From Williamsia sp. DF01-3 (GTDB lineage Bacteria; Actinomycetota; Actinomycetes; Mycobacteriales; Mycobacteriaceae): DNA of 64,000 nt. A model generated the notes under the pieces. It saw only the letters and a list, made by a program, of their open reading frames with translations, ran no database searches and was not told where the DNA came from. Positions 51,401 to 61,741 of the stretch are shown piece by piece. A program made the translations under genes and the position numbers. Location of the stretch: positions 2,311,733 to 2,375,732 of the forward strand of contig NZ_JALKFS010000005.1 of NCBI RefSeq assembly GCF_023051145.1. The letters are read 5' to 3'. Every line of letters starts with the position of its first letter. The stretch's first letter is position 1.

Positions 51401-51771
51401 GGGTCAGCCCGGGCAGCTATCCCACCGAGTTCATCCGCCCCCAGCTCGACGCGCTGGGAGTGGTCGCGGCGGCGGACCTGTTGTCGGTGCCCGACGGTTC
51501 CCGCGTGCTGGTCGGCGGCGCGGTGACCCACCGGCAACGACCCGCCACGGCGGCGGGGGTGACGTTCGTGAACCTGGAAGACGAGACCGGGATGGTCAAT
51601 GTGGTGTGCTCGGTGGGTCTTTGGGCGAAATACCGCAAACTGGCTCAGACGGCGCCCGCCCTGCTGATCCGGGGGCGGGTGCAAAATGCCGAGGGGGCGG
51701 TGACGGTGGTTGCCGACCGCCTGCAGCGCATGGACCTCCGTGTCGGATCCCGATCTCGTGACTGGGCCTGA
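48485..51771 (+). pseudogene. dnaE2: Error-prone DNA polymerase III alpha subunit DnaE2, frameshifted near the N-terminus
   Basis: DnaE2 is the SOS-induced translesion polymerase that works with ImuA' and ImuB. It starts GTG 48485 (MGWHNGPPTWSELERVL). The PHP domain has YAELHAHSSYSFLDGAS. The frame breaks after TVFGSE near 48860; the rest continues one frame over from about 48861 (SLLRDAPRTGVADPDG) to 51771. Restoring one base between 48859 and 48862 gives a TVFGSELSL join, matching the family, and a ~1095-aa protein. Catalytic acids are in PPDIDIDIES and an OB domain (FVNLEDETGMVNVV) is present. All else is intact, so a sequence error is likely. A LexA box lies just upstream. Confidence 0.92.
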
Positions 51772-51841
51772 CCTGGCCTCGTGACCCACTCGGCGGGATC
51801 GGTGGGCCGTTTGATGGATCGCTGCGAGTACCGGCCGGCAC

Positions 51842-51847
51842 TAGCAT
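51842..51847 (+). promoter_or_regulatory. Candidate -10 box for the retron RNA
   Basis: TAGCAT ends five bases before the first base of the inferred a1 repeat (51853), which would place the start of transcription at or very near the 5' end of the msr-msd RNA. No good -35 element is seen. Confidence 0.4.
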
Positions 51848-51852
51848 GACGG

Positions 51853-52014
51853 GATGCGCGGTGGGCGGGGCGAGAGTGGGTTCACCGAACCCGTCTCAGG
51901 GGCAACCCCTGGGTGCATCTCACAGTTGGTATCAGCGTCCGACGCCGGCAGGCACGCTCCGCGTGCTACCCGGCGCCGCAGACGAGAGTTCTGGTCGCCC
52001 CGCCGCCGCGCATC
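51853..52014 (+). ncRNA. Candidate retron msr-msd RNA
   Basis: This 162-nt non-coding segment ends six bases before the reverse transcriptase ATG. Its ends are complementary: 51853-51873 (a1-like) and 51995-52014 (a2-like) pair over 19 positions as 9 bp plus 10 bp separated by a small internal loop. Inside, two small hairpins follow (GGGTTC-ACC-GAACCC at 51878-51892; AGGGG-CAA-CCCCT at 51898-51910), as in an msr. Then comes one long hairpin (CGCCGG 51943-51948 with CCGGCG 51970-51975, inner GCACGC-TCC-GCGTGC 51952-51966, outer CGTC/GACG), as in an msd. By analogy with Ec86, G51874 directly after a1 is the candidate branch G. The structure is seen; function is inferred. Confidence 0.75.
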
Positions 52015-52020
52015 TGCCTC

Positions 52021-53334
52021 ATGACCACCGACTCGACCGATCAAGGCGACTCCACCGACTCCGCACATCCTGACGATCTGGGTGGCCTCGGCCCTGGGAT
52101 CCGGATCCCGGCACGGTCGCTCGACCTGCTCATCAACCGGCTCGAGGTGGATCCGCGGTGGTCGGTCCATGCGCTGGGCGACATGCTGGCGGCCACGACG
52201 GCGCCTGCCACGGCCACGGCCCTGCTCGGCCTGCTGCTCGAGAGGTTCCCCGAAAGGCCCGAGCCGGAGGCCGTCCGCAGGGCACTCTGGTCGATGGTCA
52301 TCGAGAACCGCAGCCAGGTCTTCAATGAACCGCCGACGCCCGAGATGACGTTCGGTCTCACACCGCTGGCCGACGCCACCGATGTGGCGCGCTGGCTCGG
52401 CCTCACGGTGGGCGAACTGGAGTGGTTCGCCGATCGAGGTCACTGGCTACGCTCGAAAAAGACTGCGCTCGTCCATTATCGGTATGTCACGATCCCCAAA
52501 CGTGACGGCGTCAGGGTGATCGAGGCGCCAAAACCCCATCTACGCGAGATCCAGCGCCGGATACTCCGAGAGATGCTCGATCGCATCCCACCGCATCGCG
52601 CGGCGCAGGGATTTGTCGCGGGCCGGTCCACCGCGAGTTTCGGCTGGCCCCACTCCGACCGCAACGTGGTGTTGCGGGTCGATCTGAGGAACTGCTTCCC
52701 GACCATCACCTCGGCGCGGGTGCGCGCAGTTTTCGCAGCCGTCGGCTACCGGAGGACAGCCCGGCTCTTGTCCGAGATATGCACCACCGCAACACCTCCC
52801 GATGTCCTTCGAGGTCTCGACTTCGCCCACGCGTCACTACTGCGGGGGCGACATCTCCCGCAGGGTGCCCCGACCTCGCCGGCCCTGGCCAACCTGGTCA
52901 TGCGCACCATGGACCGCCGGATCTGGGCTTATGCCCGGCACAACAACCTTCACTACAGCCGTTACGGCGACGATCTGGCCATCTCGGGCGACGTCATGGA
53001 CGCCGGGAAGGTGCTCTGGACGGTGCTGCGCATCATCGCCGACGAAGGCTTCACCGTTCACCCGGACAAGACGAAGATCATGTACTCGCACCAGCGGCAG
53101 CAACTCGCGGGGCTGGTGGTCAACGACAGGCCCAGGGTCGGCCGGGTCGACTACGACAACCTCAGGGCATTGCTGCACAACGCCATTCGCACGGGGGCGC
53201 ACGCCCAGAACCGAGACGGCCATCCGCGTTTCCGCGAGCATGTGTACGGCAGGATCGCCTGGATCGCAGCCACCAGCCCAGCCCGGCGAAACACGTTGCT
53301 GGCCATGGCCGAACGGGTTGATTGGGATCGCTAG
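52021..53334 (+). CDS. Retron-type reverse transcriptase
   Basis: In this 437-aa protein the first ~120 residues are a variable helical extension; the RT begins near DVARWLGLTVGELEWFADRGH (121-141), a lead-in seen in retron RTs of the Myxococcus type. Palm motifs: YVTIPKRDGVRVIEAPK (155-171), HSDRNVVLRVDLRNCFP with Asp221, LPQGAPTSPALANLV (279-293), and YGDD (315-318) with both catalytic aspartates. The thumb segment reads LAGLVVN (362-368) where retron RTs often have VTGLVVN, a variant. ATG 52021 is chosen because it directly follows the a2-like repeat; a longer start at 51913 would run through the RNA hairpins. It copies part of the upstream RNA into msDNA if the system works. There is no obvious effector fused. 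Confidence 0.88.
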   Translation: MTTDSTDQGDSTDSAHPDDLGGLGPGIRIPARSLDLLINRLEVDPRWSVHALGDMLAATTAPATATALLGLLLERFPERPEPEAVRRALWSMVIENRSQVFNEPPTPEMTFGLTPLADATDVARWLGLTVGELEWFADRGHWLRSKKTALVHYRYVTIPKRDGVRVIEAPKPHLREIQRRILREMLDRIPPHRAAQGFVAGRSTASFGWPHSDRNVVLRVDLRNCFPTITSARVRAVFAAVGYRRTARLLSEICTTATPPDVLRGLDFAHASLLRGRHLPQGAPTSPALANLVMRTMDRRIWAYARHNNLHYSRYGDDLAISGDVMDAGKVLWTVLRIIADEGFTVHPDKTKIMYSHQRQQLAGLVVNDRPRVGRVDYDNLRALLHNAIRTGAHAQNRDGHPRFREHVYGRIAWIAATSPARRNTLLAMAERVDWDR

Positions 53335-53404: not shown

Positions 53405-53824
53405 ATGACGCGCAGCAACTATTCGAACAATCTCGACCGCCAGACACCGGGCGCTGCCGAGACCACCGACAGCGAGAACTCGCTGGACACTCAGATCGCG
53501 ATTGTCTGGGCGCTCGAAGACGGGTGGCAGGGTGCTGACTCGCTGGCCCCGAGCCCGCAAGCCAAAGAGTTCTACGAGATCTACCGCGATGGTCTGCCCA
53601 GTTCTTACTGGAACGAGTCGGCGCCGAGCGCAACCGTCGACGGTGGTTTGCACCTCGGATGGGAACGCGGCGACCACATCTATTCCGCCGACATCCTGCC
53701 CGGCGGCGAACTGGTCTTACGGGTGACCGCACCTCATGAGTCGGACAACGCCGAACTCCGACTGGATCAGCCGACAGCGGGAATGCTCCGCCGTTTCGTG
53801 ATGCGTGGCCTGCCGATCGACTGA
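53405..53824 (+). CDS. Hypothetical protein downstream of the retron RT
   Basis: This 139-aa soluble protein has no signal. The pattern ALEDGWQGADSLAPSPQAKEF...WNESAPSATVDGGLHLGWERGD...LPGGELVLRV resembles a small family of uncharacterised bacterial proteins with GWdG...AP...DGG..LeW blocks, probably a beta-rich fold. It starts 70 bp after the RT stop codon on the same strand. It could be a retron accessory or effector, or an unrelated neighbour; its possible own promoter argues for some independence. I do not recognise a catalytic motif. Confidence 0.7.
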   Translation: MTRSNYSNNLDRQTPGAAETTDSENSLDTQIAIVWALEDGWQGADSLAPSPQAKEFYEIYRDGLPSSYWNESAPSATVDGGLHLGWERGDHIYSADILPGGELVLRVTAPHESDNAELRLDQPTAGMLRRFVMRGLPID

Positions 53825-59091: not shown

Positions 59092-60258
59092 TCAGCGCCG
59101 CGCCAGATCGACGGTTTTCTTCAGAAGCTCTGAGACCGAATCGAATTCGGTCAAGAATCCGTCGTGGCCATTGGCCGAATGCACAACGTGCAAGCCGTCG
59201 ACGCATCCCGGCATCAGCTCGGCCAACTCGACCTGCTGACGGATCGGGTACAGACGGTCGGAGTCGATACCGCCGATGATCACCGGCACCGCACAGCTGC
59301 GCAGCGCTGCCTCGACGCCGCCGCGACCGCGGCCGACGTCGTGGTGGTTGAGGACCTGCGAGAGCACCACGTAGCTGCCGGGATCGAACCGCTGGACCAA
59401 CTTGTCGGCCTGGTGTTCGAGGTAGCTCTGGACGGCGTAACGGCCACCTTCGAGTGGATTCTCTTGTCCTTGCGGCGAATTCGCGAAGCGCTCGTCCAAC
59501 TCGAGTTCGTGGCGGTAGTACATGTGCGCAATGCGCCGCGCAACTCCCAATCCCGCGGTCGGCCTGCGGCCCGTGCCGTGATAGTCGCCGCCCTGCCAGT
59601 CGGGATCGGCTTGGATGGCGGCGATCTGGGTGGTCTGGGTGCCGATCTGGTCGGCTGAGGCCCGGGCGCCCACAGCCAAGATGAGTGCACTGCGCACTCG
59701 TTCGGGGTAGCCGATCACCCACTCGAGCGACCGCGCGCCGCCCATGGATCCACCGAGGACCGCTGCGACGGTGTCGATCTCGAGGGCGTCCATCAATGCG
59801 ACCTCGGCCCGGACCTGATCGAGCACGGTGATCTGCGGGAAGCGTGAACCCCACACGCGCCCTTCGGAATCGAGTGATGCCGGGCCGGTGGACCCCCGAC
59901 AACCGCCGAGGACGTTGGCCGACACCACGCACCATTCGTTCGTGTCGACGGCGGCGCCCGGACCGATCAGCCCATCCCACCAACCAGGGGAGGGCTGACC
60001 GGGTCCGGCCGGGCCGGTGACATGGGAGTCACCGGTGAGCGCGTGTAGTGCCAGCACCACGTTGTCGCGCGCTTTCGAGAGTGTGCCCCACCGCTGGAAG
60101 GCGAGTGTGACGTTCTCGATGCGTTCGCCGTTGTCGAGCTCGATGGGCCCCACCGACACACTGGTCAGCTTCCCGTCAGGCAGCGACTCCCAATCCGGGT
60201 GGATTCGCGGGGGCGTGTGCGGGTCGGTGCTCAATGTCGGCTTGGGGCTCGTCGTCAC
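59092..60258 (-). CDS. metX: Homoserine O-acetyltransferase
   Basis: MetX makes O-acetyl-homoserine for methionine synthesis by direct sulfhydrylation. This 388-aa alpha/beta hydrolase fold has [14 protein letters not shown] near the N-terminus, the nucleophile serine in [28 protein letters not shown], the aspartate in [11 protein letters not shown] and the histidine in SANGHDGFL. Its start overlaps the metY stop codon by four bases, so it is cotranslated with metY. Both are under the SAM-IV riboswitch upstream of metY. Confidence 0.96.
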
Positions 60259-61626: not shown

Positions 61627-61741
61627 GGACCCGCGCTTGCCGCGGCGAAAAACCGCTGGCCTGGTCATCACCCGGAGCACCCCACCGCGGTTGGAGGGTT
61701 GCCGATCAGCGAGCCGGGGCTTGTCGCTGATACTCATGACC
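61627..61741 (-). promoter_or_regulatory. SAM-IV riboswitch of metY-metX
   Basis: On the minus strand the segment reads GGTCATGAG... GACAAGCCCCGGCT... CGGCAACCCTCCAACCGCGG TGGGGTGC... GGTGATGACC... and ends GGCAAGCGCGGGTCC, which matches the SAM-IV aptamer I know from upstream of metY in mycobacteria. GGTCAT near the 5' end closes with ATGACC (P1). Immediately after, GGGTCCGA-AGG-TCGGACCC (61615-61633) forms a hairpin that overlaps the 3' end of the aptamer, so ligand binding and hairpin formation would compete. High S-adenosylmethionine is expected to lower metYX expression. Confidence 0.92.

Follow-up and report, generated by a model that had tools for sequence, protein, structure and literature searches.

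The stretch of DNA analysed here (the window, 64,000 nucleotides from Williamsia sp. DF01-3) carries on its plus strand a structured RNA at 51852-52015, followed by a gene for a retron-type reverse transcriptase (RT) at 52021-53334. The initial annotation had placed this pair between dnaE2 and trmL, and both neighbors were recovered with NCBIfam, dnaE2 upstream scoring above and trmL downstream scoring below the cut-off. A further plus-strand ORF of 139 aa (53405-53824), absent from that annotation, lies between the RT and trmL. RT and RNA are each present in one copy in the host genome (5.59 Mb, six contigs). The features of the locus, with the evidence for each, are as follows:

51842-51847, plus strand: -10-like box TAGCAT, putative promoter of the non-coding RNA (ncRNA), from the conserved YANNNT 5' of a1
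51852-51873, plus strand: a1, forming the 5' side of the terminal stem and carrying one bulged base, from the fold and a duplex test of own against other-genus partners
51874, plus strand: putative priming (branch) guanosine in the context GAGA, the first base after a1, from conservation and the position in known retrons
51878-51892, plus strand: msr hairpin 1, from the window fold and the family consensus
51895-51913 (core), plus strand: msr hairpin 2, CTCAGGGGNAACCCCTGGG, nearly invariant, from the alignment and the family consensus
51935-51994, plus strand: putative msd template with predicted ends, from conservation of the junction and the far end
51940-51978, plus strand: long msd hairpin with a conserved GCACGCTNCGCGTGC tip, from the window fold, alignment, consensus and covariation
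51995-52015, plus strand: a2, forming the 3' side of the terminal stem, from the fold and the same duplex test
52021-53334, plus strand: retron-type RT of 437 aa, of which the N-terminal ~110 aa form a rapidly evolving extension, from Pfam, NCBIfam, PADLOC and PDB

The RNA 5' of the RT has the retron plan that had been proposed for it, with an a1/a2 stem enclosing a pair of msr hairpins and a single long msd hairpin. Its complementary ends proved slightly longer than the ~19 bp first claimed, forming 21 pairs (G-U included) with one bulged base in the window sequence. As described, a2 ends just before the RT ATG, with a gap of five bases. The minimum free energy of 51850-52020 was -100.5 kcal/mol, compared to -78.7 (SD 4.1) for 200 shuffled sequences, none of which folded as low (z = -5.29); this fold contains two smaller helices that are absent from the family consensus. 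At gathering level, Rfam returned no match for the RT locus, nor did a search of 51750-52100 up to E 1. In three loci of genus g6 (L098, L099, L109), the RNA match is 203 bases long compared to ~170, with the extra bases located between the two msr hairpins.

The fold was supported by covariation. We aligned 36 homologous RNAs (the window and 35 others) and derived a consensus of 31 pairs with RNAalifold. Changes on both sides were seen in 17 of these pairs, compared to 6.0 in shuffled alignments and 2-7 when pairing partners were slid. With the structure fixed, paired cells amounted to 97.1%, compared to 89.6% after shuffling and 38-48% with slid partners, and none of five pairing measures was reached by any of 500 shuffles, a control that ignores relatedness and that tests a structure derived from the same alignment. 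Compensating changes were distributed over the a1/a2 stem (4 of 6 pairs), msr hairpin 1 (3 of 4) and the outer (6 of 7) and inner (2 of 5) helices of the msd. Seven of the eight pairs of msr hairpin 2 never vary in the alignment, so this element carries little evidence on pairing and much on sequence constraint. To compare a1 and a2 across the family, 32-34 bases of each were taken from 89 loci and every a1 was paired with its own a2 or with those of other genera. The own duplex was more stable than the mean with other-genus partners in all 89 loci (medians of -43.3 and -31.0 kcal/mol, respectively); no other-genus a2 equalled the own partner in 48 loci, and at least one did in the other 41. 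The initial annotation had named relatives keeping the RT without a covarying a1/a2 stem as a refuting outcome, and we found the opposite: the RNA is present at 89 of 90 RT loci and its stems covary. Judged from these alignments, covariation shows that a1 and a2 pair in the folded RNA.

The elements expected to start and prime the RNA are conserved as well. The TAGCAT reported just before a1 is present, and 88 of 89 loci have a -10-like box matching YANNNT between -38 and -26, counted from the inner end of a1. Its placement is narrow: 89 YANNNT occurrences fall in the slice from -35 to -30, compared to 2-11 in each of 15 other slices. An extended -10 element has TGn ahead of the box. At the box position, 66 of the 89 loci have GGCA, so that the box can be read as an extended -10 in those loci; the window does not have this arrangement and its box cannot be read that way. 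Given TAGCAT at 51842-51847, the RNA would be expected to start at ~51852-51855. When the RNAs are aligned to the covariance model described below, all 89 have an A followed by a G at the inner end of a1, which places a G in every RNA at the position from which priming would occur. In known retrons the priming G occupies the equivalent place, usually in the context TAGC and also in CAGA, CAGC or GAGC (as given in sections of PMC6868368). At the other end of the putative template, the junction with a2 reads GG then TC in 89 of 89 RNAs, and a GCGTCC-like block is conserved in the alignment at the template's far end. Under three assumed stops, the predicted msDNA is 55, 60 or 63 nt long. We also considered whether the msDNA tip might serve as a decoy for a genomic binding site. 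Allowing at most one mismatch, the genome contains 5 occurrences of GCACGCTNCGCGTGC, the tip's own copy included, compared to 11 of a reversed control pattern, and these counts give the idea no support.

The RT was confirmed as a 437-aa ORF carrying the motifs first read in it, YGDD and QGAPTSP, and LAG in place of VTG. Its sole Pfam domain is RVT_1 (E 1.7e-20). The best NCBIfam model was retron_St85_RT (E 1.1e-49, 169.3 bits, under the cut-off of 235), and the best PADLOC models were RT_other (PDLC02949; E 5.4e-167, 554.8 bits) and RT_outgroup (PDLC03740, described as retron; E 7.3e-158, 524.1 bits), both matching from residue 42 almost to the end of the protein, with RT_XIII far behind (302.8 bits). 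RTs from Dietzia, Tsukamurella, Burkholderia and a second Williamsia had the same two best PADLOC matches. These labels apply to the RT; PADLOC also has its own msr-msd covariance models (mentioned in part of PMC9252829), which may already cover the Williamsia RNA. Among PDB entries, the best match was the RT of the E. coli retron Ec86 (structures 7v9u/7v9x; E 6e-30), over residues 148-389, so that the RT core matches and the match stops short of the N-terminal extension. Of 90 RTs from the family, 45 have YGDD at the active site and the other 45 have YADD. None of the 90 has VTG, the position being occupied by LAG (61), LTG (25), MTG (2), LGG (1) or MAG (1); among the retron RTs covered in PMC4244168, 47% have VTG, and variants are also described (sections of that paper). 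In the NAXXH motif of region X, the A is kept in 76 of 90 RTs, the H in all 90 and the N in none; this N is also replaced in Ec48 and Mx65 (sections of PMC6868368). Mean identity between genera was 23% for residues 21-105, compared to 57% for residues 151-390, and such rapid variation argues weakly against a conserved effector domain in the extension. The closest named relatives of the RT, 95-96% identical, are in two Williamsia muralis records and in a third record filed as Kitasatospora arboriphila, followed by four further Williamsia records at 69-71%.

RNA and RT occur together almost without exception. A covariance model, R1, built from 36 RNAs among 90 RT loci, recovered a full-length RNA at 89 of the 90, including 53 of 54 outside the building set, which are related sequences. 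The one miss (L119, genome G286) has an RT that is incomplete at its N-terminus. In this genome (region L151) a shortened RNA match (E 3.6e-9) lies ~10.5 kb from the incomplete RT, with transporter- and oxidase-like genes in the gap (ORFs read by eye); G286 contains a broken retron. Among 301 genomes sampled from the family, with thresholds of E 1e-60 for the RT and E 0.001 for the RNA, the RT was detected in 94 and the RNA in 95, and all 94 carry both; in the one extra RNA genome (G277), the RT runs off the end of a contig. In an even sample across the phylum (396 genomes), the RNA was found in 3, all from the same family, and the RT, at a threshold of E 1e-40, was detected in 5, of which two belong to other families. 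With filters off, more distant RNA matches appeared in a locus from another actinobacterial family (L135, E 5.4e-6) and in three Burkholderia records, where a full-length RNA lies just 5' of the RT (E 0.015, 0.016 and 0.041); the Burkholderia matches score weakly and depend on their position, and the RT start is annotated in L144 only. The weak Burkholderia matches carry msr hairpin 2 in the version GGGGCUACCCC. The folds of L135, L145 and L146 show a long terminal stem with hairpins inside, and that of L144 is less clear. Of two other distant RT relatives, L147 has no RNA at the RT start and L136 has a partial RNA match of 19 bases (E 0.18).

The pair appears to have been inherited mostly by descent. 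In a tree of 90 RT sequences, 14 label changes account for 13 genera, compared to a minimum of 12 and a mean of 60.5 with shuffled labels; the least tidy genera are g9 (4 changes) and g18 (3). Since the tree largely follows genera, descent dominates. The order dnaE2-retron-trmL is shared by 16 loci in four genera, namely eight in Williamsia, six in g18, one in g16 and one in g9, where dnaE2 is ~2.5 kb away. The initial annotation had called the locus an insertion into a conserved block, and this description is misleading given the number of loci and genera with this order and a tree that follows genera; on both counts, the retron has long resided at this site. The retron has also been relocated or transferred at times, as it sits in differing places within several genera: among 85 loci compared for synteny, g30, g24 and g2 each have one place, and there are four synteny groups among 6 loci in g4, six among 10 in g9, four among 22 in g6, four among 14 in g23 and two for the 2 loci in g15. 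That the RNA-RT unit can move is indicated by a Dietzia plasmid (L142, 2854-4298) on which RNA and RT adjoin merA. Within Williamsia, RT and RNA are present in 8 of 9 genomes. The ninth, G001, has neither; its dnaE2 and 139-aa ORF sit at the termini of two contigs with a common end sequence, and an IS110-like element (read by eye) and a small ORF lie between them. With eight of nine genomes carrying the retron, loss in G001 is likely, at a site that is not cleanly assembled.

We also considered, and rejected, the possibility that the locus is a phage or plasmid element. There were matches in 31 plasmid records, none over 80% of the query; the nearest are the Dietzia plasmid and a record from Tsukamurella that, given its polA and rpsA, may be chromosomal. 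Matches in 13 phage records were all below 60% identity, none covering over 80% of the query, and a scan of viral_contigs gave two weak relatives.

Neighboring genes were compared by all-against-all clustering of ORFs from -3.5 to +5 kb around the 90 RT loci. Of the 60 largest clusters, apart from that of the RT itself, each was found near the RT in at most 4 of the 13 genera, and both clusters found in four genera look, by eye, like miscalled antisense frames. Neither these clusters nor the Pfam domains of the RT contained a linked or fused effector; the ORF caller is crude, based on third-position composition, so that short genes may escape it and an effector that is small or encoded elsewhere would go unseen. 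Polymerase genes were seen near the retron, perhaps by coincidence: besides dnaE2 in Williamsia, a DNA polymerase I gene precedes the RNA by ~0.7 kb in g30 (L113, read by eye) and by ~2.4 kb in a Tsukamurella record (L143, annotated). Two close relatives (L002, L004) have short CCGTCGACCGTGCCGAAACA-type repeats between dnaE2 and the RNA, which the window does not have there.

The 139-aa ORF was tried as a partner of the retron. Were it an effector, the locus would be a classical tripartite anti-phage retron, and its position fits that arrangement, since every one of the 8 retron-bearing Williamsia loci has it 3' of the RT and in the same orientation. However, it is near the RT in only 8 of 90 loci, all from Williamsia (tblastn, E 1e-8), G001 keeps it despite carrying no retron, and it has no match in Pfam, NCBIfam or PHROGs; we rejected it as a partner and regard a tripartite system built on it as very unlikely. 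The RNA could alternatively be a cis-regulatory leader controlling translation of the RT, with no msDNA made. It does lie directly 5' of the RT, five bases from the ATG, and in 84 of 89 relatives the gap to the start codon, chosen crudely, is 3-61 bases. Against a leader of this kind stand a long terminal stem, a G after a1, a hairpin template before a2 and conserved junctions, which together match retron anatomy, and an RT whose best matches are retron RT models; we consider it highly improbable. Even less credible, to the point of being almost negligible, is that the RT belongs to a group II intron or a diversity-generating retroelement: the group II maturase model TIGR04416 gives a weak match (E 1.4e-13, 50.7 bits, cut-off 300), far below the retron RT models, and the Rfam search of 51750-52100 gave no intron ribozyme match. 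We estimate a probability of roughly 0.93 that the locus is a genuine retron in anatomy and ancestry; the absence of VTG and of the region X asparagine from the RTs counts against this identity. In its best reading, the retron unit consists of the RT and the ncRNA only and is mostly vertically inherited.

As a retron, the locus would work as follows. A promoter just upstream of a1, suggested by the conserved -10-like box, would transcribe the ncRNA, which would fold with a1 and a2 paired and be recognized by the downstream RT, a step that we infer because the two co-occur nearly one to one. Primed on the 2'-OH of G51874, the RT would copy leftwards, starting at G51994 and passing through the long hairpin, and would stop near the conserved GCGTCC block (~51932-51940) to yield a branched msDNA of a predicted ~55-63 nt. 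The Williamsia retron very likely produces msDNA.

What such a product would do is less certain. No linked effector was found, so that if the retron functions in phage defense as other retrons do, a gene at another site or a host function must supply the effector. The likeliest role, held with modest confidence, is defense or stress sensing by an RT-msDNA particle with an unlinked partner. More tentatively, this could be a domesticated, mostly vertical retron with no dedicated effector and a standing cellular role rather than a mobile anti-phage module; that role might be, for example, genome maintenance or stress sensing, with a host factor reading the near-invariant msr hairpin and the msDNA tip.

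Retrons of this kind have precedent. Parts of a 2022 review (PMC8867640) state that retrons typically have effector genes nearby and that some do not, that bacterial retrons show both vertical inheritance and horizontal exchange, and that myxobacterial retrons share the codon usage of their hosts. Since effector-less retrons and vertically inherited myxobacterial retrons are both described, retrons of this kind are known already, and a vertical lineage lacking an effector is not without parallel. Several features recall the myxobacterial retrons as described in sections of PMC6868368 and PMC8867640: their vertical inheritance, as largely seen here, and, from PMC6868368, the extended RT N-terminus of Mx162, Mx65, Sa163 and Ne144, the Mx65 priming context GAGC, which resembles the GAGA of the Williamsia RNA, and the missing asparagine in region X of the Mx65 RT. 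The comparison is one of description, and the phylum differs, as does the msd, which is 162 nt in Mx162 compared to a predicted ~60 nt here. The initial assignment of the RT to a Myxococcus-like branch is therefore a weaker claim than the retron identity, the nearest labels being PADLOC RT_other and RT_outgroup. The Williamsia retron also differs from Ec86 in that no linked effector was found. Experimentally characterized retrons are listed, in the part of PMC8867640 that covers them, from Delta-, Gamma- and Alphaproteobacteria and Bacteroides only, and among the matches listed from the open-access literature, we recognized no description of this RNA. Our analysis adds an actinobacterial RNA family, a conserved -10-like box and a tight RNA-RT pairing.

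Within one actinobacterial family, 13 genera have kept the same RNA-RT pair together, in most cases through descent. As no conserved gene was found beside the pair, the role of effector-free retrons becomes directly testable by deletion. A high-GC retron with a covariance model and predicted msDNA ends might also be of use for making DNA in actinobacteria. Elsewhere in the window, a SAM-IV riboswitch was detected on the minus strand (61628-61741, 108.9 bits), ~1.4 kb upstream of a minus-strand ORF (59092-60258) that resembles homoserine acetyltransferase by eye.
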